Shown piece after piece: positions 1 to 60,600 of a DNA stretch of 64,000 nt. The notes below the pieces were generated by a model. The model made no database searches, was not told the origin of the DNA, and worked only from the letters and a program-made list of their open reading frames with translations. Origin of the DNA: Pegea sp. RAD2-039. Taxonomy: Eukaryota; Chordata; Thaliacea; Salpida; Salpidae. The position numbers and the translations under genes were made by a program. The stretch lies in assembly GCA_034620365.1 (NCBI GenBank), contig JAQGEQ010000126.1:62001-126000 (forward strand), given 5' to 3'. Each line of letters starts with the position of its first letter. Position 1 is the first letter of the stretch.

Positions 1-489
1 TTTTTATAAATATTTAAATAAGAATAAGTAAACACCAATGATTTTAAGATTACATTTTTTTGAGTGATCTTTAGAGTAAGAGTATTCCTCATTTTTTTAT
101 TTTATAATTAAACTAGTAATTACTATACTGAAGAATAATTAAACATCGAATTTATTCATATTAGCTTACTGTTCGAAGCTTATGACCTAAAAAAGTTTCA
201 GTTTTAAGGAAGTTCTTTTCGACTGTTTAGTTTTAGACCATAGTTTTTAAATTTTAACAATTTTCATGATAATTTATATTATTTAAGTTATTATAATTGT
301 TATAATTCTATAGTTTAATCTTTGTAACTCTGCAAGATTAATAAAAGATCTTAACATTCTTAACTAACTCTTAAGTATTTATTAATATTAAGACAATTTA
401 GAATCCTTTCATAACATTCATAAAATAGAAAATACTTTCACTTTACTTAAGAGAATATAAAAGTTGAAATATAAATATTTATTCTTCAA
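1..489. repeat. Direct repeat, copy A (partner of 6306-6797)
   Basis: The first ~489 bases are nearly identical to 6306-6797 in the same orientation, with scattered substitutions and small indels. Similarity stops abruptly after the shared stretch ending in 'tttattcttc'. Copy B lies just upstream (by transcription) of the minus-strand membrane-protein gene at 2954-6079. By analogy copy A could be the upstream flank of a paralogue lying left of the window. No ORF is seen in the copy. Confidence 0.9.
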
Positions 490-2953
490 AATTTTCAAGT
501 AGACTAACCAACTAAGTTACAAAGCAGTGGTAGAATAATAAAGGCAAATTAAAAAAACTGTGATGAAAGCGTATTCAATGATTCATTATTTTGATGACAG
601 CTGCTAAACTGTTTCCTGTTCCAACGAATAATCAAGCAAACAATATTAACTTTTATTTTTACTTGTATATACTTTATTTACTTCAAATATACCTTAATGC
701 TTAAATTATTATAACAACACATTACATCCACAAGTTTTTTTACTGTTTTAAATAAGTTATCTTTTGTTTGGAATATTGTTGATCATTAGCAAATCCATAA
801 TCTCCTTAAATAAATAACATGTTGGTTTTTCTAAACTATTTTTTCACTTTATGTTGTAGGTTTAAACTATTCACATTAGAAATATTTTTTCACTTAGTGA
901 TTCACAAAATGTTTGGCATAAAAATATAAACGTTTAATGAAATGGTAATCATACTTTTTAATTTAACAGATTTACAGAAGCTATAAAACAATTATAGAAA
1001 AAAAAACTATATTTAATCTTTCTGCCTCTTTTTCAAACTAAGCTTTTTATAAAAAGTTTATTAAACATTTATTCAATGCTAGAAATCATATTATATCTAT
1101 TTAATTTTAACTGTAAATAAAATAAAGGCGTTTGCTTCCAGTTATTCTTCCGTATAGCTTTCACTTTCCTTTTGATATCTTCTAAAATTTTAATAAAATA
1201 AAGCAATTTGTTAATCTAGGTTACTTTAAAAGTATTTTCTTTTACAACTTCTGCATTTAATAAAATAAAGTTAACCAAGTTTGATTGCTAATAACAGCTA
1301 CAGTATCATATAGTACATTTGTTTACATTTATATTAAGCTTAAATACTTTGTCACATAATTGTTGAAACAATTTCAAATGTTTTAAATATATTTCCACCG
1401 TTTTTTAAAAACGTCAGCATTTACAAAATACTTCCATTGCATTAGTTTATTTAAACTTATATTAAATAAACAAACTTAGTTTAGTTATGTAATTATTATT
1501 CAAACTTGAAATTAAAAATTCTTGTAATTTTTTGAAACTTTGTAATAATTCAAAGAACAGATTGGCTGCTCAGCTTTTAAAGTAGCCTCAGTAAAGTCTT
1601 AAACATAATTCAAAAGTAAATAAAGCTTTTAACTTTATGATTTCAAATCTTTTTAGCAAAAGAAGCCTTTGATTGACTCAAGCTAGCAATGCTACTATTG
1701 TAGTATAATAATAAGTTATAAAGAGAAAGCAAATATAAATAATATTTTTTTTGTTAAAATAAAAGCTTTAAACAATAATTATTTTATTTAAAATTAGTGA
1801 CAAGCTTTTGACAAAACCTTAAATTTTATTTTTTAATTTCTTTGACTTGATTAAAATTAAAAATTTTCTTTAAGATTTTTTTTTTACAACTCGAAGGCTC
1901 TAGGTTTAAAATAATAAATTCGTTTAAGATATTACATTATACTTTAAACAACTATATTGATCTTAGAATTACAAAAATGTTAAGTTTTCACAGCAATTGC
2001 TTGTATTTGGCAATTCTTGTTAGACGCTAGCCATTTTTGTCACTCTTAATTTGGGTTATTTTTGGATGAAACCTTCCAACTATAGAGTAGCTACAACTAG
2101 ACATCTTAGACTAAAGGAACAGAAGTTTTACGAGATTTAATTGGGGCAACTTTACAATAAAAATAAATTTGTATAATAAATTTGAAATAAAGTTTGGATT
2201 TTAATTGTATCATAAATATTTTTTAAAGTTTGGTATTGGTTTAATTTATAGATATTTTGTATTTATTTTAGTACTTTTTATTGGTCGACAATATAATCTA
2301 TCAAAACCCTATTATAAACTTTTTCAATATCTTGGTCTATAAATTTCTTCACTAAAAAACTGTTTTACTGTTTATGAACCTACACAAAGATAACTCAACT
2401 AAAAGTAGACTATTTTAAATCTTTTTATTTCTACTTAAATTTTAAACAAATTTTCGTATCCTATCTTGAAATTAGAAAAAAAACTTCCTTCTCTTTAAAT
2501 AATCTAAGAAATATGAATTGTAAGTTGAAGTTTTTACTAAAAACTGTTTTATTTATTTAAGAAATTATTATCTATTTTCTAAAAGGAATAAGATTGTTAA
2601 ATATTTGCTGCTGAATATTGGTTTTTAATTGCGCTTAATTTATAAAAAAAAACTCTGTTAAAAACTTTTTATCAAATCAAATGGTAAGCTTAGAAAAATA
2701 CTTTTAAATACTAATATCAAACTGAAAAAGTTTCAAAAGATACTTTAGTAGTCATTGTCAGTTATTAATATCCGGAGACATACAACTTAAAGTTAAAACT
2801 TTTATTGATGAAATGTTATGTAAGCAATTATCACTTAATTGATGTGTTTGTAGCTTGGTTTATATTTTTATGTTATAATAAATATTTATTGCTAATAAAG
2901 ATAATTATAATTTATAAAATCTTAAACCAAATTAAATGTTAGTCATAAAATTC
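490..2953. other. AT-rich non-coding stretch
   Basis: I see no ORF with protein-like composition and no RNA gene. The part from about 2620 to 2950, directly downstream of the membrane-protein gene, has a diverged counterpart at about 9150-9450, which supports an old duplication of a ~6.5 kb unit. Confidence 0.5.
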
Positions 2954-5900
2954 TCATACAGTTTCATCAATTAAATGAAATGAAAATTTCTTCTTTTTCC
3001 ATACATAAACCAAATAGATACCAACAAGTAATATTACACCAGTAATAACAGCTGATATAATAACCATCGGTGAATTGTAACAGCTAAGGTGCTTATTGGA
3101 AACGTTTTTGAATTGGTGTTGGTTCGATATGGTTGTAGCTGTACATAGAATAATCTTTTCACTTTTTCAATTGTTTTGTAGCACAAAAAAGAAATTAATT
3201 TTAATTCCTACTTTTGATACTTTACAAATTAGTTAAGAAATGTAAATTGATAAGATGATTTAAGAGTTTATTTATTTAATGTAGAGATTTACTATTTTCA
3301 TTGCGTTTGTTCAGAACTATATAGAATTATAAAAGTATCTTTAAGAGGCTTACACACTATCATGTATAGTGATAAGAATAACTATTAGTAATAACTTCAA
3401 TAATGGCTTATAACTTTAACGAAAATCCGCTACTAATTCTTACTTTCATTTGTAGTTACCATTAAATCAATAAAAAGTGAATCTAAACACAATTCCGGTG
3501 ATTTCACTTCAATCCTAATAACATCTCCCTCTTTGAAAGTCTAGGAATTTAAAATAAGTTATTTCTGTATCAAACAACTTAACGTCTAACGTGTGTAAAT
3601 GAAATTCGTAATCTACCGTTTAGGGAAATTAACTTTTGAAGTTTCTTTGAGAGTGAAAAAGTGTTTAAACTTAAATTTTGTCACATAATAAAGAAAACAT
3701 TGAATGCATGATATATTTTTGTACAAAGTAAATAAAAGTTCACAAAATTAAGTTACAAAAATACTTTTGTAATTTGTTTTATCTCAAGATTAAAAGTTTC
3801 TCAAAAGAACTTAATAAAATTATTACTATTTAAAATACAAATTCTATTCACCTTTAAAACATTATTTACCTCATGAAAGCAAACCTTATAAACTTGTAAG
3901 TCTCCATTAGTATCGTTATTACTTACATTACGTATCGTATCACGTATTACATCTCGATTAGTACCATTACGTATCGTAATAACGTCTGACAGTGCTAAAA
4001 ATAAACATCTTGACAACAAAAAATATGTTTCAAGGAAAGCAGACGAAAAAACCAAAAACTTATTAGTACACGCTTTTATAACTTTAACAAAAATCCGCTA
4101 CTAATTCTTACTTTGATTTACTAATTGAGGTATTTCAGCACTAGGACTGGAATAAAACTTAATATTGCAACATTTTTCCTTCTCAAAACAAGGAACAACA
4201 CAAGATTGATTCACACTTCCATAAGGTGGATCTGTTTAAAAAAAATGAGTTAACTTTAAAAATAATGCAGCAATCAAATTGAACTTTTAGCTTTCATAAA
4301 CTTACTAACATTGAATTGTTAATGATTTCCAATCTGAACTGAACTTTTTGCTCTGATTTTTATAGTTATAACTTATCTCACACTGAACTTTGAAATATTC
4401 CCTTTCGTCAAAAGTGAAAGTTTTTCTTAGAGTTTTATTCTACAAAAAGATGACAAAAATAAATGAACATATATATTTTTCATTACTCAGAAACAAACTT
4501 ACTTTAAAATTGAAGTTTATTATAACAATTCATTGAATGATTTTAAATATAAATGTTAAAAATATAAAGCCTCTTACTGATTTGACAGAAAGTGTTGATT
4601 GGTTTTTATGCATGAAAATAAACTTTATGATAGTGATCTTTGGAAACCCCTCAATGAAGTCACATGTTAGGTTCAGAGTTTCATTGACTTTCAAAACCAA
4701 ATTTCCTCCAACAGAGACATTTTGAGAATCTTAAAAAATTAAAGTTTACAAGTTTTAGAATTTCTAAATTGCAATTTCTGTGATTTTATCAGAGCAAAAT
4801 AAAAACAATTTAGATTACTTTTGCTTTCACATTTTAGTTTTATTACTATTGTTTTAATCAATTATTATTCTAATAAAAAATATTTAACTAATGTCTTCTA
4901 CTTCTTAGAATCAATTTACCTTTCCAACACTTATAGTTTTCTAACTTATTCCATGTAGCATTTTCTTTACAAGTAACAGAGATAGATTGGTTTTCACTAA
5001 GATGTCCAGAAGTATACAGCATTCCAGATGTACAAGACGCGGTTCCATTACCTCCATAGCTTCTTTTATCATAAGTTATTTTAAATTCGTCATTAGGATA
5101 ATTCCCATTCTCGGAACAGTCTAAAAAACATCCAATTAAATCCTACAGAGTTATTTTAACAAATTAAAAGAAGTGATTTGAAAATGATGTAATATTTTTG
5201 CTTTTAAATATTTTATGAAATTTTCTTTAATTAGTTAAATTTTGAAATTTATTTATTACCACAAATGCGAAGGAAGGTGCCTGAAGATAAATTAATTTAA
5301 TATAAGTTACATAAAAATATTTGCATAAAACAGTTATGTGATAAGTTAATGGAAAAGTATGAAATTTTATTAAATGTTACAAATATTTGAAACAGCAATT
5401 GCGTCAGCTGAGTCATCATCGACTTAAAACTTAAATTATTCATAATTTGTTAGATTATTGCAATTTAATTCAGAATAGATTATGAAGTTAGTTACTTTTG
5501 ACGCGAATGTTTTCTACTTGACACTTTTCTTTGCGACAATTCAAATAAATTGAAAAGTTGTCGAAGCTTTCATTGAGATTTGTTCGTGGTGAAGATGAGA
5601 AGGTGAGATTATCACCAGAATGTTTATATGGGAGAGTTTGGAAGTATTCTCTAAATTGCGGTGTCTGACCGTTGAAGAGCTCAAAAGTTTCGTTTTTATT
5701 TCCAATTTTAATTGTCAACGTGCAGTTTCCATCAAGGATGGTATTAAAAGATATCTGGTATAACGAATAACCCTTTACATATCCAATTGCCCAATGATCT
5801 CCAATGCCGAGTCGTTCAATCTTCACAGTGCTGTTGCCAGGGCACAAATCTAAATAAGAAATTAATTTAAACTGTATTTTGTTAAAGACAAGTAGAAAAA

Positions 5901-6079
5901 TAAAGAACAACAGAACTTGTTGCTTTTAAATAAATAAAAACTATTCAAAATAAATTTATTTGAATTTAAACAATATTTTAAACGTTGAAAATGTTTCAAG
6001 TAGAAAAATTACTTTTGCAATTTGTGATATGATTTGATAATGAATAGAAACAGATTATCACAAATATCATAAACTTCAT
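2954..6079 (-). CDS. Type I membrane protein with sushi and Ig-like domains (nine exons)
   Basis: I read nine exons: 6013-6079, 5496-5849, 4920-5120, 4578-4729, 4310-4439, 4112-4231, 3870-3985, 3444-3540 and 2954-3138. All have GT-AG borders and compatible phases, giving 473 residues. Exon 1 is a signal peptide (MKFMIFVIICFYS...). Exon 2 is a ~118-residue beta-rich module with six N-glycosylation motifs, ending in C-x4-C-x-V-x-N-I-x-V as some beta-sandwich sugar-binding modules do. Exon 3 fits a sushi/CCP domain (four Cys, ATW before the last Cys). Exons 4-5 form an Ig-like domain (LNLTCDF ... YFKVQCEISYN). Exons 6-8 are Cys- and Asn-rich. Exon 9 holds the transmembrane helix (MVIISAVITGVILLVGIYLV), then KKKK and a short tail. 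The ligand is unknown. The architecture suggests a cell-surface receptor or adhesion protein. I do not recognise an orthologue. Gene structure is fairly sure; function is inference. Confidence 0.82.
5250..5292 (-). mobile_element. Short 3'-end remnant of the CR1-like LINE family
   Basis: Read on the minus strand, this stretch contains 'caggcacctTCCTTCGCATT' followed by a TAAA-like tail. It matches the conserved 3' end of the LINE copies at 20477-24966, 25080-25130 and 63845-63885. It lies in the second intron of the membrane-protein gene. It is a severely 5'-truncated insertion, which is common for LINEs. Confidence 0.6.
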
Positions 6080-6305
6080 AATTCAGATCCAAAAACAACT
6101 TGTTCTTTGTTACAAATGATTAGCTTCAATAAAATTCCTTTTATTTAAAATTGTATTTAACAGATTAGGAAAAAAACTTTTTAGTTTTGATATACACTAA
6201 AAATACATCATTTGTAATTTGTTTAAAATGTTATTAGCTACTTTACAAATAAACTTTGAACTAGCTGTTAACTTTATCTATTTATTAATGATCACAAAAT
6301 TTTAA

Positions 6306-6797
6306 TTTTTATAAATATTTAAATAAGAATAAGTAAACACCAATGATTTTAAGATTACATTTTTTTGAGTGATCTTTAGAGTAAAAGTATTCCCTAAATT
6401 CTTTATTTTATAATTAAACTAGTAATTACTATACTGAAGAATAATTAAATATCGAATTTATTCATATTAGCTTACTGTTCGAAGTTTAAGACTTAAAAAA
6501 GTTTCAGTTTTAAGGAAGTTCTTTTCGACTGTTTAGTTTTAAGTCAATAGTTTTTAAATTCTAACAATTATTACGATAGCTTATATTATTTAAGTTATTA
6601 TAATTGTAATAATTCTATAGTTTAATCTTTGTAACTCTGCAAGATTAATAAAAGATCTTAACATTCTTAACTAACTCTTAAGTATTTATTAACATTTAGA
6701 CAATTTAGAATCCTTTCATAACATTCACAAAATAGAAAATACTTTCACTTTACTTAAGAGAATATAAAAGTTGAAATATAAACATTTATTCTTCTCA
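6306..6797. repeat. Direct repeat, copy B (partner of 1-489)
   Basis: Same orientation and nearly the same sequence as 1-489, offset by about 6305 bases. It begins about 230 bases upstream of the start codon of the membrane-protein gene, so it may include that gene's promoter region. It is not an LTR pair in my reading: the interval holds an intron-rich host-like gene and no gag, pol, primer-binding site or polypurine tract that I could see. Confidence 0.9.
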
Positions 6798-20637: not shown

Positions 20638-23487
20638 TCACAGTTTAGAAATGGCAATGTTGGCGATGTTATAACAATTCAGCTTTTTCTTGAACAGCAT
20701 AAGTGATTTTGACATGACAATCTCTGATGGCAGATTGTTCCATGTACTGATTGTGCGGTATGAGAAAAAATTTAATCTGGTTAACGTTGCTGGTGGAGTG
20801 GGCTTATTAAGATGTAATTTATGTCTTCTAAGTTGATATAACTTGAGGGAGGGACTAATGGAGAAAAAGTCATCAAACTGAAGATCAATTAGGTTGTGAA
20901 TAATTTTAAAAATCAGAATAAGGTCGTATTTAATTCTTCGGATTTCCAAAGTATCTAGATTGAAGAAGCTGAGACGATGCTTATAACTCTCGTATTTGAT
21001 ATTAAGTTTCCTGCAAACCAATCTCGTAAATGTTGCCTGAACAGATTCGATTTTTCTGATATCACCAACTTGATATGGCATCCATGCACTGACATTGTAT
21101 TCAAGAATAGGGCGTATGTACAGTTTGAAAAGGTTGACGAAAAACCATGGATCTTTAGAATTAAAAGTCTTTATGATGAGGTGGACAAGCCTGATAGATT
21201 TTCCAAAGATTCTGGAAACATAACTGTGCCATTTGAAGTCAGATGTCAGAGTAATGCCGAGGTCTATGACTGAGGATACTCGTTCAAGAATAGATCCATT
21301 GATGTAGTATTGGTTGCTGAAGTTGGCAGCTGGCTTACGGGAGAATGTTATAACTTCAGACTTTGTTGGCTGGATTTTAAGTTGCCAATTCGCAGACCAG
21401 TTTTCTACAATATTTAGTGCAGTTTGGAGTTTTGAGTGAGAACCAGATAATAGCTTGATGTCGTCTGCATACACAAACACACTGACATTGTCTACTGTTA
21501 TTAGTCTTCTGATGAGGTCTTCAATGAAAATCAAAAAGAGAAGTGGACCCAGGACGGAACCTTGAGGAACGCCGCTGGTGACTTTACTAGGAGTAGATAA
21601 AGATCTTTCTACACGGGTTCGTTGGGTTCTACCTGATAAGAAATCTTCAATCCATTTTAAGATAGAGTTGCTGATTTTTATGTTTTTCAATACAGCACTG
21701 AGCTTGTTGTGTGGAACAGAATCAAAAGCTTTAGCAAAATCAAGGTATATGATGTCACATGGAGTATTACTTTCGTAATGAGCTGTAAGCTCATTGAAAA
21801 AATTGAGATGTTGAGTCAAAGAAGATCTTTGCTTAACAAAGCCATGCTGGACATCAGATATTAGATGATGCTCCGTCAAATGGCTAGTTATATGGTTGTG
21901 AATGATGTGTTCTTGAGTTCTGCAGATAACCGAAGTCAGCGAAACTGGTCTGTAGTTAAGTGCAGTGTTTCTGGGACCCTTCTTATAAATTGGAGTAATA
22001 ATAGCATTCTTCCAAATTTGTGGAAGTCTTCCCCGCTTAAGAGTCATGTTAAAGAGTAGCGATAAGGGTAGCGCTAAAGAAGAAGTACTTTTTCTTAAAA
22101 ACAAAGCTGGGATTTGATCTGGGGTGTTGGAAACTGTTGATTTTAGAGAAGAAATAGCCTTAGATACTATATCAGCTGTTATGTCTAGATCTACCATCTC
22201 AGAGATATTTGAAAGGATATTGGAGTAGGAAATAGTAGGAGTATTGCCATCATCGGTTATAAAAACCTTTTCAAATTGTTTGTTTAGCAATTCAGCTTTA
22301 TTCTTTGGTTCCATCACCAGCTGATTAGCGTTATCAAGCAAGGGAGGTAGATGAGATCTCACCTTAAGCTTGTGATTAATGAAGCCAAAAAACGTTTTCT
22401 TGCTAGGTGAAGATAAGATTGCACTTTCTTTTCCTAAATAGAAGCTATAAACTGATTTCTTGTAGACTAGACAAAGATCTTTGTATAGAGGTTTGATGGA
22501 AGGATCTGCTTTAGTTTGTTTGTATAAGAGGTTTTTCAAATGCTGTAAATTCCTTAAATATCTTGGCAAGTGTGGTTTTTTGTTGACTCTATATAAAGGT
22601 AACTTTTTAATTGACTCATTAACAATGTTAGTAAACCTCGAGTAGATATCATTGATGTCTTCGGTAGAGTTGAAAACAGAAATCCAGTCAACACCTGATA
22701 AAAACTTGTTTATACTGTTATAATTTCCACGATAAAAGTTCCGTATGCTTGGAGTTTTAACGTTCGTAGAAAAAGTTTGATGGAGCTTGAATTCAATCAT
22801 GTTGTGATCGCATGTCAGAGCAAAAGGTTCATTTTGATCAACGTAGATAACGTTCTCAGGTTTTGATGTGATGAGAAGATCCAAAGTATTACCACTAACT
22901 TGGGTTGGAAAAGTAACCATCTGAGATAGATTATTGGCATCAAGGAAGTTTACAAAGACATGACTCAGATTGGCTGAATTAGTTTTGTCTCCATTCAAAT
23001 TAAACAATTTTCCATTGAATGCTAAATTTGGGTTATTCCAATCAATTCTACTAGAATTAAAATCCCCGAGAATATAAATCTCAGGACAAACAAGGATTTT
23101 CAGAACCTTCAATAAGGCCTTAATAGTAACATCATCGTTAACTTTAGACGGTGGTAGGTAGGTACATATAAAGCGGGAAAACTTAGACTTTGAGTAATGA
23201 AAATTGAAAGCAATAACCTCAAATCCTGGGCAGTCAATGGTATTTATCTTAATTCTTGAAATCATGGGTGCCAGTGATGTTTTATAGATTACACAAACAC
23301 CGCCGCCTCTATCAAACAGTCTGTCACAGCGCAAAGCACGAAAAAGATCACTGTCATCCAGAAAGGAGTCAGGATAAAAGGGTTTCAACCAAGTTTCGGT
23401 AATGAAAACAAATGTAAAATCTTGAGAAAGCAAAAGAGCTTTCAATTCGAAAATTTTGTTGACAATTGACCGTGCGTTGAAAAACAT
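20638..23487 (-). CDS. LINE ORF2: endonuclease-reverse transcriptase
   Basis: 949 residues. It nicks genomic DNA and reverse-transcribes the element RNA at the nick. The N-terminal third is an APE-type endonuclease: NARSIVNK, ITETWLKP, ILGDFNSSRIDW and the final catalytic block around TCDHNMIEF. The middle is the reverse transcriptase: YRPVSLTSVICR, DIIYLDFAKAFDSVPH, GVPQGSVLGPLLFLIF and the catalytic VFVYADDIKLL. A thumb and C-terminal region follows. Length and order are those of CR1/L2/Jockey-type elements. The first Met is chosen because NARSIVNK, the usual start of the endonuclease, follows at once. No RNase H domain is seen. Confidence 0.95.
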   Translation of the reverse strand: MFFNARSIVNKIFELKALLLSQDFTFVFITETWLKPFYPDSFLDDSDLFRALRCDRLFDRGGGVCVIYKTSLAPMISRIKINTIDCPGFEVIAFNFHYSKSKFSRFICTYLPPSKVNDDVTIKALLKVLKILVCPEIYILGDFNSSRIDWNNPNLAFNGKLFNLNGDKTNSANLSHVFVNFLDANNLSQMVTFPTQVSGNTLDLLITSKPENVIYVDQNEPFALTCDHNMIEFKLHQTFSTNVKTPSIRNFYRGNYNSINKFLSGVDWISVFNSTEDINDIYSRFTNIVNESIKKLPLYRVNKKPHLPRYLRNLQHLKNLLYKQTKADPSIKPLYKDLCLVYKKSVYSFYLGKESAILSSPSKKTFFGFINHKLKVRSHLPPLLDNANQLVMEPKNKAELLNKQFEKVFITDDGNTPTISYSNILSNISEMVDLDITADIVSKAISSLKSTVSNTPDQIPALFLRKSTSSLALPLSLLFNMTLKRGRLPQIWKNAIITPIYKKGPRNTALNYRPVSLTSVICRTQEHIIHNHITSHLTEHHLISDVQHGFVKQRSSLTQHLNFFNELTAHYESNTPCDIIYLDFAKAFDSVPHNKLSAVLKNIKISNSILKWIEDFLSGRTQRTRVERSLSTPSKVTSGVPQGSVLGPLLFLIFIEDLIRRLITVDNVSVFVYADDIKLLSGSHSKLQTALNIVENWSANWQLKIQPTKSEVITFSRKPAANFSNQYYINGSILERVSSVIDLGITLTSDFKWHSYVSRIFGKSIRLVHLIIKTFNSKDPWFFVNLFKLYIRPILEYNVSAWMPYQVGDIRKIESVQATFTRLVCRKLNIKYESYKHRLSFFNLDTLEIRRIKYDLILIFKIIHNLIDLQFDDFFSISPSLKLYQLRRHKLHLNKPTPPATLTRLNFFSYRTISTWNNLPSEIVMSKSLMLFKKKLNCYNIANIAISKL

Positions 23488-23631
23488 ACCTAATATAATA
23501 GAAAAATTGTCTTTTTGACACTTGTAAGATTTGGTGGTAGGCTTCTGTGTACTGGTATCTAGGGGTTGGAAGCATAGTATTAATAATTTTGTGCAAAGAG
23601 AGGTTGAATAAGGATGATGTGGGTCCAGTGG

Positions 23632-24627
23632 TTATTTTGAACTTCTGTTTTTTGAAAAGACCTTCACAATCTTTAAAGCCCATAGTGGACCTCGAACTTT
23701 GTATTTGAAATCAGTTGGTTGCTCTTTCTGATTTCGGCTGTACGCCTCTTTTAGAAGACGCTTATTTTCTGAGCGATCATCTTCACACATATCATGTGCT
23801 ACTCTGATGCCCTGGAATTTTTCGTCCTGCTTAAGCTTATACAGCTTAGCAAGAAACTTACGTTTGTCCCATCTTTCCTGAAAGGACACTTTTAACGGTC
23901 TTTTATGATTTGATCTTTTTGCCCCGAGTCTGGTCATTGCAACTTTTGGAGCGTCCACAAAACCAAGGCTTTGAGTGCTCATTTGATTAAAAGTCTTGAT
24001 GTCATCGTCTTTATCAGTCTCGGAGACACCAAAGATGATGACATTGTTTTCTCTATCCTCCCGGTCCAGAGTAAGTTTTTTGTGCGTGTCAGTAACCTTC
24101 TTGGCAAGAAGTTGCACCACGCTAGTATTTTTTTCGGATCCAGAATTACCAACAACTGAGGCCCATGTGAGAGGCTTCTTTGTGGAGGCATCCAGTTCAT
24201 CCATAGATTTTGATAAGATAGAAATCTTTTCATTGATTTTGGCAACATCGTTGCCAATTTCGGATTTTAATTTGGCCAATTCAGTGGATATGGTGTTGCT
24301 GATGTCGGACAATAAGCTTTTGTTAGTGTTGGACGAGGTAGTTGTTTTGTCCATAGATCTACATTTAATGCAGAACCAACAAAATCCCACTTGCTGCATT
24401 TTATTATTTTCAAATATATCATATAATTTTTTATTCACATCACTACAAGTGAGGTGAAACCTAGAGAGGCATTTGATGCAATCTATTGCCATATCTTCAC
24501 CAGAGCAAGTTTTGTTACAAGCTTGGCAATTGCCATTGCAAGCTTGTTTTGAAGAACTTGGTTTGCTTGAGTTTTTTGGAGCTTTTGACCGCAAGGTCCT
24601 GCCATTTGTATCTACCATAGTTTCCAT
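23632..24627 (-). CDS. LINE ORF1: PHD-type zinc finger and coiled-coil nucleic-acid-binding protein
   Basis: 331 residues. Near residues 30-90 is a PHD-like Cys/His finger (CNGNCQACNKTC, then CIKCLSRFHLTCSD, ending CWFCIKCR). A predicted coiled coil follows (about 105-150, LAKLKSEIGNDVAKI). Then comes a basic C-terminal half (REDRENNVIIFGV, MTRLGAKRSNHKRPLKVSF) typical of the RNA-binding ORF1 proteins of CR1-group LINEs. It probably packages element RNA. It ends 144 bases before the ORF2 Met. Confidence 0.88.
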   Translation of the reverse strand: METMVDTNGRTLRSKAPKNSSKPSSSKQACNGNCQACNKTCSGEDMAIDCIKCLSRFHLTCSDVNKKLYDIFENNKMQQVGFCWFCIKCRSMDKTTTSSNTNKSLLSDISNTISTELAKLKSEIGNDVAKINEKISILSKSMDELDASTKKPLTWASVVGNSGSEKNTSVVQLLAKKVTDTHKKLTLDREDRENNVIIFGVSETDKDDDIKTFNQMSTQSLGFVDAPKVAMTRLGAKRSNHKRPLKVSFQERWDKRKFLAKLYKLKQDEKFQGIRVAHDMCEDDRSENKRLLKEAYSRNQKEQPTDFKYKVRGPLWALKIVKVFSKNRSSK

Positions 24628-24966
24628 GATAGATTTTTAGTAACTCCCACGAAAGTATGAAATTTATAAGTCAGATAAATGTATGTGATATGTATAAATA
24701 AATATATAAACAAATATACCAAGTTAATAAAATATAATAAATAATAATAAATAAATACACCACAAAACTTAATCACAGCTTATTAGCAGTTATTCAAATA
24801 GAGTATATAGAAATTGAAGATGATAAAAAGTCCAAATTGATTTCTAATCCAGATATGATCACAAAAAATATACAAATCCTTTACTGAAAACAGTTTTATC
24901 AAAGCTTATAAGCAATATCAGAATAAATTTGTTATCCTAACAACCTATAACCTTATTCAAATAGAA

Positions 24967-25130
24967 TGTTATAATTCTATGTAATTGTTATATGCTTTGA
25001 GTGATATCGAAATACCATTTGACATCTTTTGCTTTCTATATTTTTGACTAAATAGATGTTATTTGTGAAAATGTATGTTAGCGAGAGGTGCTCTCTTCAG
25101 GCACCCTCCTTCGCGTTTATTGTAATATAT
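24967..25130 (+). mobile_element. 3' end of the old LINE copy (continuation of 18480-20476)
   Basis: It continues the interrupted 3' UTR: 'attctatgtaatt', 'tatgctttgag', 'ttgctttctatatttttgac', then 'gcgagaggtgctctcttcag' and 'gcaccctccttcgcg'. The same sequence order occurs without interruption at 63680-63885 and, inverted, at 34257-34385. This confirms that 20477-24966 was inserted later. Confidence 0.88.
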
Positions 25131-38837: not shown

Positions 38838-41800
38838 CTAGATCGTCTTATTACCTGATACCACTACAAGTACGTTGCTATGACTAACCGCCAACCAAAC
38901 CACGCCAAATGTTTCCAAGCAATTATTCAAATGAACCTGTTTAGGAGGGTCAATAGTAGAACTGCAACGCCCCAATTGACCCCTGGTACCCTTGCCCCAC
39001 GAATACAATCGACTATCGCGTGTAGACGCCACTGTAAATGTCCCGCCACATCCCACCTTCTCAAATCTGTATCAAGGCAACATAAGATGGTGAAGACGCG
39101 AGATGACGTCATACTTGGCATCGGGAAGCGCTGTAACTTGAAAAGGCAATCTCGGATGATGATCAGTGGTGCCAAGTTGACCACTGCTGTTGTTGCCCAC
39201 TATCACCAGTCCACCATCAACTGAAATTAACTTCAAATTAGAATTCGTGACTATTTTGGCCTTTTTTCAAGTTTCCATATAATAAATATGGCCTCCTGGT
39301 AGTATCTGTAGACCAAAATGGTCGATTTATAGGAGTTTTTAAGCCCTCGACTAAAATTATAGCAGTCAGAAGTCTCAGAATAAAATAAAAGGAACCCAGC
39401 CCTTAAATTAACTTTCTGTTCGTGGAGTTTTCCCACTAATTTTCAGATGTTGAGCTTTTTGTTAGTGTCACCCTAGTAACCAAGAAGAGGGCAGTGATTG
39501 GAAATGGTTTTCCCAGGGCATCGGTCCGGCTTCCTGACGATATTTTCAGATGGCTGACCCGCAAGGTTTCTTCTTCTAAAACTAAATGAATTCTGTTAAA
39601 AGTCGATATTTTGATGAATTCGAACATTTCTCTTTTAAACAACAAATATTTCAAATAAATCAGAATATTTGATACTAAATTGGATCTATTCTTGATCTTA
39701 AAGAAGATTTGAGAAAGGTTTAACTGATAAGATGAAAAAAAGTTGTAAATTTCGAAATCCTTTACTTTTTTGACAATTAAAAATGAGGCTGAAAAATTTG
39801 TTTTTTTAAATCTTCAAATATTTGATGAGAAAATAATTAAAGTTGAAACACGAGAGGGTAGCGGAGCTCTTCGATGACGTCATCAGTCTCGATGTTCTTT
39901 CGCAAAAAACAATTAAAGTTTCTTCGCCAAAAAAAATCCTCAAATAATATTAGATAGCAAAAAGTAGATGATGACGTCACAGCGTGAACGCGCGACTCAC
40001 CAGTGATAGCTGCGGAGTGCTGCATTCCTAAAGAGATCTGATGAATATTTCCTAAAGAAAGAGGTTCGCTTCGAAGTGGAACAAACCGAGACGAGTCCGT
40101 CGTCTCTTTGATTAACTTATTTGCATGAATCACATCAAGTCCCAACCTAAAAGCGAAGTCGTTGGATTTGGAGCGGTTGTCATGGCAACTATCGACCTGT
40201 TGTGTACGTTGCTACCACATGCGAGAAGCCGTTGACTACGCGTCAATATCATGGAACAGTCGATGCCACAGTGAACTGACAAGGGATCGATCTCATCAGG
40301 GATAGGGACCAGTGTTGGGATGTTGTAAGTTTCGTGATTATTTAATCCAAGTCGACCTAAAACTTCGCGATCAAAAAATCGCGATTCGAAGATTCACTCA
40401 CCTCCATCTCCCCGACCCCAAGCAAACACCTCGCCGTCAGTTGAGACTGCCAACATGTGGTAAGAACCACTCGCGATGTGAGAGAGTTCGTAACCTAGCA
40501 ACTTCTCAACTATCATCGGCTGAGAATAAAATATGAAGATCAAAAGATGAAGATCAGAAGATGAAGATTAGAAGATGAAGATTAGAAGATGAAGATTAGA
40601 AGATGAAGATTAGAAGATGAAGATTAGAAGATGAAGATTAGAAGATGAAGATTAGAAGATGAAGATTAGAAGATGAAGATCAGATGATAAAGATCAGAAG
40701 ATGAAGATTAGAAGATGAAGATTAGAAGATGATGATTAGAAGACGAAGATTAGAAGATGAAGATTAGAAGATGAAGATTAGAAGATGAAGATTAGAAGAT
40801 GAAGATTAGAAGACGAAGATTAGAAGATGAAGATTAGAAGATGAAGATTAGAAGATGAAGATTAGAAGATGAAGATTAGAAGATGAAGATTAGAAGATGA
40901 AGATTAGAAGATGAAAATTAGAAGATGAAGATTAGAAGATGAAGATTAGAAGATGAAGATTAGAAGATGAAGATTAGAAGATGAAGATTAGAAGATGAAG
41001 ATTAGAAGATGAAGATTAGAAGATGAAGATTAGAAGATGAAGATTAGAAGATGAAGATTAGAAGATTAGAAGATGAAGATTAGAAGATGAAGATTAGAAG
41101 ATGAAGATTAGAAGACGAAGATTAGAAGATGAAGATTAGAAGATGAAAATTAGAAGATGAAGATTAAAAGATAAAGATTAGAAGATGAAAATTAGAAGAT
41201 GAAGAGTAGAAGATGAAGATTAGAAGATGAAAATTAGAAGATGAAGATTAGAAGATGAAGATTAGAAGATGAAGATTAGAAGATAAAGATTAGAAGATGA
41301 AGATTAGAAGATGAAAATTAGAAGATGAAGAGTAGAAGATGAAGATTAGAAGATGAAAATTAGAAGATGAAGATTAGAAGACGAAGATTAGAAGATGAAG
41401 ATTAGAAGATGAAAATTAGAAGATTAGAAGATGAAGATTAGAAGATGAAGATTAGAAGATGAAGATTAGAAGATGAAGATTAGAAGATGAAGATTAGAAG
41501 ATGAAGATTAGAAGATGAAAATTGAGATTAGAAGATGAAGATTAGAAGATGAAAATTTGAAGATTAGAAGATTTTAAAATAAAGATTAGGATCAAAAGTC
41601 AACGGACTTTTTCAACATCTACAAAGGAACCGTGTCCTAAACATCCATTGCTCCCGCTTCCATACGTCATAAGGATTCCGCGATCTGTCAAACAAGCAGT
41701 ATGGAGATCCCCGCAAACTACTCTGTGCAAGTTTCAGTTGGATTGAAATCACAAGCCATCGCTTCATCTACTAACTGTTTGATAGTAACTCCTGACTGCC

Positions 41801-44955: not shown

Positions 44956-46257
44956 TTAACTTTCTAAGTCAGTAGATTGTTCCTTATCTAAGTTAGGCAC
45001 CAAGACAGAAGATATCAAATTACAATTTTCATATAAGTAACGTCTTTCAGGATGTTCCTGATTATTCTTCTCAACTTTTTTCAAAAACTCTTCATTTTTA
45101 TTAGGTGGTGGCTGATCCATAAAGTGAGTTAAAGGGATCAGTAAAGACTTTTCATTTGAATGAGATGATGCTTTTGTATGACTTGAGTCTTCATCGGTTG
45201 CTGGTTTGGGTTTTATCATAGGTAATTTAGTGGCTTGAATCACAGGATCTTCTGATGGTTTAGGTAGAGATGAATCTAAAAGTTTATCTTCATTTAAATC
45301 TACAGGTTTGGTGGGAGAGACTTTATAAAAGTATTTCAAATTATTTACTGAATCTGTTACAACTTTTCTTGGCGCTATTTTTCTTCGACTTCCCACAGCT
45401 TTAGAAAAAGTGACTTTATCTCTTAACATAGTATTCACTTTTGATGGGGCAGTTTCTTTGTTGACAACAACAACTTTAGATTGTTCATCAACTTTTGGAC
45501 TTTCTAAAATAGATGGTTTTACAACTACTGGTTTTTCTGTGATAGAAATATTCTCTGAAGCTTTAATAGCATGCCCGAATCTAGCTACTTTGCTTGTCCT
45601 TGGCTGTTTTTCATCAAAAAGTTGAGAAAAACCAGCAGTCAAATCAGAATCTGGAATAACTTCTTGCTGTTGCTCAATTTCCAACAAGTTTTTTGTAAAA
45701 AAAGTAGATTGTTGGTTCAACAATCTTTCATAAACAGCATCTGTGATCTTTTCTAAAGCTTGTTGTTCTTTTGAAGTGAAAGAACAACCATTTGAAAGCT
45801 GTTCTGTTTCAGGTGGCCTATCATTATCTAATGAAGGTGACATCAATAGTTCTTCTATAGAGTCAGATACTGATTTATAGCGACCATCCTTAGCATATTT
45901 ATGTAGTTTTAATATAGCAGCTTTGATTGCTACAGCGTCATCTTTAACTGTAGGCCTAGCTAACATTTGATAAGTAACTGTAGTTGATATGAAACGATAT
46001 TTTGTGATTAAAGCTTTGTCTCTCTCAAGCAGACTTTCAATAGCTGCTGTAAGAGTTGGAAAATGAATACAAAAGTCTTGAAATTTTTCAATTACATCTT
46101 TAGGAGCATAACCAAAATTGTATAAAGTTACTGGTTGTTTCTTCTTTGTAGCATCATCTTTAGCATCAGTTAAACTCTTTCGTTTCCCTAAAACTGAAGT
46201 TTTACTAGCGGTTGATAACAAAGAGGTTTCTGACATATTAATTTCAAGTATACTCAT
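44956..46257 (-). CDS. Unrecognised 433-residue protein, single exon
   Basis: One uninterrupted frame with protein-like composition, 437 bases upstream of NEK8 on the same strand. Residues about 40-155 look globular and helical (FGYAPKDVIEKFQDFCIHFP, LTAAIESLLERDKALITKY, AAILKLHKYAKDGRY). Residues about 160-433 are charged, Ser/Thr/Pro-rich and probably disordered. A basic segment at the N-terminus (GKRKSLTDAKDDATKKKQ) could be a nuclear localisation signal. I do not recognise the family. Start: two Met codons lie close together (residues 1 and 8); the first is given. Lack of introns contrasts with its neighbours. Confidence 0.72.
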   Translation of the reverse strand: MSILEINMSETSLLSTASKTSVLGKRKSLTDAKDDATKKKQPVTLYNFGYAPKDVIEKFQDFCIHFPTLTAAIESLLERDKALITKYRFISTTVTYQMLARPTVKDDAVAIKAAILKLHKYAKDGRYKSVSDSIEELLMSPSLDNDRPPETEQLSNGCSFTSKEQQALEKITDAVYERLLNQQSTFFTKNLLEIEQQQEVIPDSDLTAGFSQLFDEKQPRTSKVARFGHAIKASENISITEKPVVVKPSILESPKVDEQSKVVVVNKETAPSKVNTMLRDKVTFSKAVGSRRKIAPRKVVTDSVNNLKYFYKVSPTKPVDLNEDKLLDSSLPKPSEDPVIQATKLPMIKPKPATDEDSSHTKASSHSNEKSLLIPLTHFMDQPPPNKNEEFLKKVEKNNQEHPERRYLYENCNLISSVLVPNLDKEQSTDLES

Positions 46258-57600: not shown

Positions 57601-60600
57601 TGTTTGCGACTTGAAATTTATCGAGTAATCCAAAAAACACACAAAAAAATAAAACTTCTTATCAGCGGTTACAACTTTGACAATAATGAAACAAGAAAAC
57701 AGAAATGTTGTTGTCCATCTCTCCAACCTGGTTTATTTGATTTCTCTGCGTATGTTTAGGTAGAGTTGACAACCAGGCTTCAACATTGTTTTTTGGATAA
57801 TCAGCCGCTGGCACGAAGCCATGGGTTTGTATAAATTCCTGACACTTTCTGACCACAAAAGGACTTTGAAGGAAGCAAGCCGAACACAAAGTCTGTAAAA
57901 TATAAAAGTATATTCGAAGATGAAGTCAGTAGAAATTTCTCATCTATCAGAAATAAATATCCTAGTTTTACTTTCATCAATTTAGATATAAAATTAGAAT
58001 ATAAGGAATTCAAAATCATAATCACAGATGAAGAATATAATATGTATATAAAAAAGTTGAAAATTTAACAACTTTCTGTCATTAATGCCTGAAGTTTACT
58101 GAAGATAAAAAACTGGAATAAATATAAACACAAGATTCAATTATAAGCTTGACAATGCCAGCTCAACCTTCCTTTCTTTTAGTTTACATGAAAGATTTGT
58201 TCTGTGGAAATCTAGTTTCAGCATTCATATTTAACTTTTATGGAAAATAATTTGATGCTGACATCTTTTTAATGTTTGTAATAAAGTTTTTTCTGACCGT
58301 TTCTGAATTAATCTCACAGCTAGGTGGCGCTCCTAATTCTTATATAAATAAATTATTGATTGCACTCCGATATCATTTTTTGTTTTCGTCTAAATGAAAT
58401 ATATAACTGAAATATTTTATAAGGAGTTTCGCCTTTCTTTCAGTTTTAACACACATCATAGCAAATAATAGAAATGTTGAGAAAATCAGTTTGAAGATTT
58501 CAAATTGACAACAGCTACGATTTGAAGATCAAATCAAATGTTCAAAGCTTCAAGCAAACGAAGCTTCTATATTGAAACCCCGCAGGCAATTTACGTGCCT
58601 TCAATTCGATGGGTGTGAAGTTATAAAATAGAATTTATAGAAAGAAATTGGAGAAAAAGTTGACACAACTACATAAGTAGAAATATTTTTTAAGAAATAC
58701 TTTAAAGATTCAATTTATTTTCATTCAAATAAAATCTAGAAAAGTCAGTAGGCATTTTAAGAATAGTGACTTGAAATAAAAAAAGTATCTTTCAAAAAAT
58801 TATTTGATATTCTTCTTTTTTTAAATCTAAAGTTAAAATTGCGATGGCTGCTTTCATGACTGCTCAGAATAAAAAGAAATAGAGTGAAACCCCTGAGGCC
58901 AATCCGCAAAAGTTTGACTCAACTTCAGTTTCCAGCAAACTAACTTTTTATTTCTATAATTCTTTATTCCTAATATAAAAAATAGCTTTCGTTTCAATTG
59001 AAGCTTTATTTGCTAGAAGCCCAAAAAACTGAAGAATATTTGATTGATAACTTGCAAATAAGAAATATTCACATCAAGCTTGCTTCTAAGATACATATAA
59101 GAAATTTCGAAATAAAAGATTTAAAATCTAAGCTTAACTAGAAGATCAGTTTGCTTCCAAAAAGCAAATTTCAGTCTTTAAAGAAATTAGATTTAATAAT
59201 CAGTAAAAACTTAGTTGAATTTAATAGATTATTTCAATTACCTTAAATGGTTATAAAAAAATAATTAAATAGTTATAAGGATAATGAACAAATTTGTTGT
59301 TGAAAAGTCTTCATTTGAAGAATTACAACCTAACATATGGCCTTTGCGTTTTTGCTCATTTTTTATTTCTTAGATATAAAGTTTTAAAAGCAGTTTTTAG
59401 GGCCTCTTAGGGGAATAAATCGACCTTTTAAAGGATTTTTCAGTTGTTAAAACTGATTAAGATTATGAACTAAATCTAAAGACAATTGCTTTAAGTAAAA
59501 TTAATCTTTAATGTCGATTTAATCAACTTTATATAAAGAATATGATGACGTTGATGGAGTTGAAAATTGTAGTTCTGCCTTTTTATTCAAGTGCCATTAA
59601 TAAACACTTGGCTACTTCTACGTAAGCAAAAGTTTGCCTGAAATATCATGTCTTTAGGGAAACAGCGGAAATCAGTGGTTGAAATATGGGTTGACATCTG
59701 CTCAGTAATTTCGTTGCATTGATTTTTTTATCATACCACCTGAGGCGTATCTTGAAGGACAAAATTTCCCTTTTAACATACATAAAACTATCAACTATTA
59801 TTTCATTTTTTCGACAAACTATTTTAACATATTTTTAAACATTAATTCTTGAGGGATTCAAAAACCTTTAAGGTTAAATCCGCGGCTGGATTTGTCGTGA
59901 ACGGTAAAAAAAAGTTTTCAGTTGTCTATATTTAACTTTTTTATAATCTTACAAAAAAGACGAATATAGAAATAATTTTTTGAATAAAAATAGCTTTCTG
60001 ATGAAATCAGGTTTTTAAAGTCAAAAGCTGGTATTCTATATTGAATTGAAAAGGTGTTTTGTTAATAATGAAACTTTAGATCAGTAACTGCTTTAAGTAG
60101 ACAAAATGTAAAAAAATATTCTAGAAGGCTTTCTTATTAACGTTTTTTACATTTTATCACAGAAAAACCAATTTTTATTATTTGAAAACTTTTAAAACAT
60201 TTTTAGCTTTCCTTTTAGAAAGTCAAAACACAAATTGGAAACCAAAATGTTAGTATCATACTATAACCAGAAGCTGGAGAATAAAAATATTGCAAAAAAT
60301 TAAACACAGAGAAACATTTGCATACTGAAAAATGATTCCGAGTACGTCTCGAGGGCATATAACCCGCTGGGCTTTTGTCTATCGTCTTTAGTTAGTCGAT
60401 TTACTACTAGCAAACTTTAGCTTGGCTTTTTGGGTCTTGTTTTGAAAGATACGTTAAAACAAAGTGAAACGGACTGGCAAGATATACGGTTGAATAAGTT
60501 TCATGTACATGTGAGTTATCTTATAGATTAAATGGAAGGGTGGTTTTTTGTGTAAAACTCACAAACTTATGTTCAGTACTAAAGATTTTCTCATTCAAAC

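Follow-up and report, generated by a model that had tools for sequence, protein, structure and literature searches.

Among living animals, tunicates are the nearest relatives of the vertebrates. If one of their loci carried a single ectodomain on both signalling and non-signalling anchors, the origin of paired receptors would become testable in an animal that lacks adaptive immunity, and such a locus raises the question of whether the fester/co-receptor arrangement, which serves self-recognition in the colonial sea squirt Botryllus schlosseri, has relatives elsewhere. In a review of that system, fester (FF) is a short-tailed protein with Ig and sushi domains and three transmembrane (TM) segments, while FcoR has a signal sequence, a V-type Ig domain, a sushi domain, two C2 Ig domains, a TM segment and a long tail in which ITIM, hemITAM or Y-x-x-I/L/V motifs are described; both are encoded side by side in the fuhc locus (PMC12065747). 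About half of the Y-x-x-I/L/V tail motifs are preceded by an acidic residue, and gene-content change and partial duplication are recorded for these genes (PMC12065747, PMC3549757), uncle fester being a partial duplicate of fester (PMC3549757). According to the review, the fuhc effector genes are absent from distantly related species (PMC12065747), which speaks against kinship outside the botryllids.

Among vertebrates, the paired receptors of Xenopus belonging to the CEACAM family show conversion limited to a ligand-binding exon with virtually no synonymous change, and the same paper holds that intrachromosomal conversion requires opposite gene orientation (PMC5112662). From the ascidians, the variable sushi-bearing protein vCRL1 of Ciona was once proposed for self-recognition, and later knock-down work points to the blood system and not to self/nonself recognition (PMC8849226). 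The papers listed for ascidian and tunicate receptors with ITIM/ITAM terms, judged from titles and the openings of abstracts, gave no account of the locus described here.

Structure of the array

The window, meaning the whole stretch of 64,000 nucleotides that was analysed, corresponds to C141:62001-126000 in an assembly of 105.7 Mb and 387 contigs, and all genome searches were made against this same genome. The original prediction started from near-identical direct copies at window 1-489 and 6306-6797, and these were recovered by two methods. A repeat search gave three ungapped blocks, of 103 nt (92% identity), 168 nt (90%) and 257 nt (95%), at spacings of 6305-6307, and BLAST matched query positions 1-487 to C141:68306-68794 (window 6306-6794) at 95% identity (E 2e-222). 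A further copy, 100% identical to window 1-489, lies left of the window at C141:55695-56183. When the left flank was added, C141:52822-62487 aligned with 59125-68794 at 98.8% identity over 9673 columns and C141:52822-56181 with 65431-68794 at 98.2%, and the order of the array is therefore A1-B1-A2-B2-A3. The 489 bases at the edge of the window are the visible end of this longer 6.3-kb tandem array, the whole of which occupies C141:52822-68794 and contains three minus-strand genes, all in the same orientation. Each A unit (about 3.4 kb) holds the promoter region, the signal peptide and the ectodomain exons, and each B unit (about 2.9 kb) a short-tail TM exon and a spacer. The gene with its ectodomain in A1 is named U1, that in A2 U2 and that in A3 U3, the last being the gene of the window.

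A sister gene had been predicted just left of the window, and it is indeed there: the modelled ATG of U2 lies at C141:61775, only 226 bases outside, its exons continue to C141:58648, and U1 stands behind it. What had been expected to be an amplified family is, in this assembly, a tandem array of three genes, and a large family is not supported: the exon search returned 25 matches at E<=1, 24 of them on C141. The lone match on another contig (C11, E 0.95) was rejected on inspection. Dispersal of the repeat as a transposon was likewise rejected, since BLAST of window 1-489, a search that passes over very common words, gave three places including the query itself, all in one array and with no dispersed copies in this genome. 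A gene to the left of the array matches INTS8 (E 4e-12), and the neighbour on the right, for which the searches returned no match, we take to be perhaps an exportin.

Gene models of U2 and U3

Exon ends were chosen by eye from GT and AG sites, and a script was then used to check them. U3 (window 6079 to 2954, minus strand) and U2 (C141:61775 to 58648) each gave an open 483-residue model with GT-AG introns, the exon joints being predicted; the minus-strand membrane protein proposed earlier had 473 residues. The second direct copy, copy B (window 6080..6794, minus strand), is the immediate 5' flank of the U3 start codon, as had been claimed; this flank is common to all three genes and its outer end lies 715 bases from the modelled codon. 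Copy A (window 1..487, minus strand) is the corresponding flank of U2.

In both proteins a signal-peptide-like exon is followed by a 118-residue exon, a sushi-like segment (2 exons), an Ig-like segment (2 exons), three more ectodomain exons, a hydrophobic span and the tail KKKKFSFHLIDETV. For U3, with all positions on the minus strand of the window, exon 1 (6013..6079) carries the start codon and the signal-peptide-like segment MKFMIFVIICFYSLSNHITNC, and exon 2 (5496..5849) encodes the 118-residue domain, which has no assigned fold and is beta-rich in a low-confidence structural model. Exon 3 (5260..5280), of 21 nt, begins the sushi-like segment and includes Cys147, exon 4 (4920..5120) continues it, and exons 5 (4578..4729) and 6 (4310..4439) hold the first and second halves of the Ig-like segment, the latter ending in SLTIQYPP. 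The cysteine-rich exon 7 (4112..4231), exon 8 (3870..3994) and exon 9 (3444..3540) complete the ectodomain, and exon 10 (2954..3138) encodes the TM segment, the short tail and the stop codon. A 44-nt repeat with 95% identity (window 3408-3451 and 4076-4119) spans the donors that follow exons 9 and 7, which suggests an internal exon-end duplication or conversion.

With 21-22 N-glycosylation sequons per modelled protein, the signal-peptide-like exon and one hydrophobic span above threshold in U2 and likewise in U3, these two are probable glycosylated type I surface proteins with short tails. This part of the original prediction is thus probable; its sushi/Ig part is weaker. The sushi-like piece alone reached 13.1 bits against the Pfam Sushi cut-off of 20.7 (E 0.13, profile positions 10-56 of 56, 24736 models), and the Ig pattern was recognized by eye only, the piece having no Pfam or PDB sequence match. 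A 462-residue query found neither a convincing match in Pfam nor a sequence match in the PDB, and single-sequence structure predictions were of no help with domain assignment. The modelled short tails of U2 and U3 contain no tyrosine motifs, and no charged residue for adaptor pairing was seen by eye in the short-tail TM segment.

The diverged anchor and modelled long tail of U1

U1 matches U2 and U3 in promoter region, signal peptide and ectodomain but differs in its membrane anchor, its TM region being only 68.7% identical to theirs over 294 columns (C141:51763-52048 vs 58665-58938). The near-identity of U1 and U3 goes no further than the 3' boundary of exon 9, the last of the ectodomain. U1 is without the exon 9 donor of U2 and U3; its model uses an upstream phase-0 donor, ATG|GTAACT, which is present in all three copies and fits the TM exon of U1, the two being joined in frame. 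U1 also has Tyr in place of Cys147.

The tail of U1 was modelled as 16 short exons at C141:51636-47017, picked by eye and 45-69 nt long, all with lengths that are multiples of three and with one frame kept throughout, and we infer that they belong to this gene. The U1 model with these exons has 768 residues. Its tail contains 5 NPxY and 7 YxxV/I motifs (3 YEVV and 4 YAVI) with lysine-rich spacers and probably signals; none of the three modelled proteins contains a match to the ITIM, ITAM or hemITAM pattern. Parts of the tail region are themselves duplicated at 97-98% identity, and all 10 genome matches of a tail query at E<=10 fell on C141. Three tail exon types were sought in spacers B1 and B2, including the U2-U3 spacer at window 488..2953 (best ungapped identity in this one 0.53), and no copy was found in either. 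An extra last exon of U1 near C141:46545, with TYATV and a hydrophobic end, is possible but uncertain.

Differences among the copies

All three copies share one tract of near-identity, which begins 712-715 bases before the ATG and reaches the 3' boundary of the final ectodomain exon. Within the 5' flank there are 0/712 differences between U1 and U2, and each of them differs from U3 at 27/712. Over the coding columns of U3, the last 16 of which are non-coding in the U1 model, there are 7/1267 differences for U1-U3, 14/1267 for U2-U3 and 19/1267 for U1-U2; the corresponding values for the introns are 25/1381, 14/1382 and 18/1381. The pattern of differences is a mosaic. In U1-U2 and U2-U3, coding sequence and introns differ to about the same extent, and conservation of the ectodomain is therefore not general.

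Eighteen coding sites vary, 15 nonsynonymously and 3 synonymously (14:3 in U1-U2, 6:0 in U1-U3 and 10:3 in U2-U3), and a neutral simulation expects 4.9 synonymous sites (P 0.22). Exon 2 holds 6 of the 18. The diversifying substitutions envisaged earlier are not borne out by these counts, which over 18 variable coding sites show neither positive nor purifying selection.

Comparison with known receptor systems

At the level of the gene models, the locus resembles the vertebrate paired receptors (CEACAM, SIRP, KIR, SIGLEC) in combining near-identical ectodomains, the counterpart of their ligand-binding regions, with different TM and tail regions in one cluster. It differs from them in having no pair of inhibitory and activating motifs, the three patterns searched having no match, and we therefore describe the array as one that would work like paired receptors and do not call it a member. 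With Xenopus CEACAM (PMC5112662) it shares homogenization as far as an exon boundary and few synonymous changes, but the tract takes in the promoter region and the whole ectodomain here and one exon there, and the pairs that are opposed in Xenopus are replaced here by genes in the same orientation.

The likeness to FF and FcoR, by their published description, lies in clustered short- and long-tailed receptors, here with putative sushi-like and Ig-like segments, and in a long tail with Y-x-x-I/L/V motifs, represented by the YxxV/I motifs of the modelled U1 tail. Unlike FF and FcoR, the short- and long-tailed members of the present array have almost the same ectodomain, U2 and U3 have one TM segment where fester has three, and the ITIM and hemITAM patterns given for FcoR are lacking in the modelled proteins. 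A HECT ubiquitin ligase neighbour, which is a feature of FF and FcoR, was not seen on C141 among the 52 genome matches listed. That this is a self- or microbe-recognition locus of the fester/FcoR kind in an ascidian, in which exchange would keep the signalling and non-signalling ectodomains alike and arrayed exons with NPxY and YxxV/I motifs would enlarge the tail, appears doubtful. Ciona vCRL1, by its published description, is sushi-bearing; the proteins modelled here have a single weak sushi-like segment.

Origin and possible function

The explanation we favour, although we regard it as evenly poised between right and wrong, is that of a three-gene array of type I receptors, in an ascidian-type genome, in which unequal crossing-over or gene conversion has set one ectodomain and its promoter region on two kinds of anchor, with paired-receptor function. 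That near-identity breaks off where the ectodomain exons end is, if the models are correct, a paired-receptor signature. Either process could build the array; since the three genes share one orientation and the Xenopus CEACAM paper ties intrachromosomal conversion to opposite orientation, unequal crossing-over is the likelier of the two. U1, U2 and U3 would then bind the same ligand, the U1 tail with its NPxY and YxxV/I exons would pass on a tyrosine-phosphorylation or endocytic signal, and U2 and U3, which would not signal, may be its partners, its competitors or its co-receptors. With their common 5' flank the genes would be co-expressed; this and the paired-receptor function are deduced from sequence.

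Youth could by itself explain the near-identity if the locus were an ordinary recent segmental duplication, in which U2 and U3 would be truncated or redundant receptor copies with no paired role. This fits the extension of the 98.8% identity into introns and spacers, the agreement of the variable coding sites with neutrality, the similarity of coding and intron differences in two of the three pairs and the acceptance of no further family members in the genome. However, the TM exons of U1 and of U2/U3 are strongly diverged, so the anchor duplication would be old and the ectodomains young, and old, diverged anchors on young, near-identical ectodomains argue for exchange between the genes. Both anchor kinds also retain open frames and splice sites, and on balance we consider a mere segmental duplication possible but somewhat unlikely.

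The identical 5' flanks of U1 and U2 would also fit an assembly artefact, in which the middle unit, or more, was a haplotype copy set in tandem; four successive blocks of 250 columns in these flanks are without mismatch, and no copy is found elsewhere in the assembly. Yet the left flank of U1, with the diverged TM exon and tail, and the right flank of U3 are unique, and the ectodomain is joined in two ways, to the long-tail TM and to the short TM; at least two genes therefore seem required, and we hold an artefact of this sort to be decidedly unlikely. Very improbable in our estimate is one complex gene with alternative ectodomain cassettes and a single tail, to which U2 and U3 would also splice through the phase-0 donor modelled for U1. 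Although that donor exists in all three copies and the spacers hold no copy of the tail exon types tested, each of U2 and U3 possesses an in-frame TM exon and a stop of its own, and splicing would have to reach across several to some 14 kb.

Spliced leaders and other features

A rotifer origin of the genome was rejected, as a rotifer spliced leader had 0 matches in it. The Ciona leader given in PMC7986045, followed by GT, had 99 exact matches in tandem arrays and dispersed, and its reversed control had 0; on this ground we take the genome to be most likely that of an ascidian. Spliced-leader genes stand in tandem at C4:1135044-1142219 (L054, L055) with a period of ~199 bp; the period reported for Ciona is 264 bp (PMC7986045). 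A LINE-like element with ORFs of 331 and 949 aa occupies window 20638-24967 on the minus strand, and an exact spliced-leader exon (24967-24950) precedes it on that strand. Eight of the 99 leader matches, all outside the arrays, were inspected: those of the window, L047 and L049 are alike after the leader and unlike before it, and L047 and L050 have two leaders close together, a picture that retrotransposition of trans-spliced LINE mRNAs together with the leader would give. L052 and L053 have both flanks in common.

A search of the genome for cox1 gave no match. At C42:53785-54357 (L056), three let-7-like hairpins, all below the family cut-off, lie within 573 bp, and four TGAGGTAG motifs were seen by eye in the same stretch. 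The window also holds a 433-aa ORF on the minus strand (44956-46257) with no convincing Pfam match (best E 0.05), and a 14-bp minisatellite of ~76 copies (40533-41589) whose plus strand is purine-rich.
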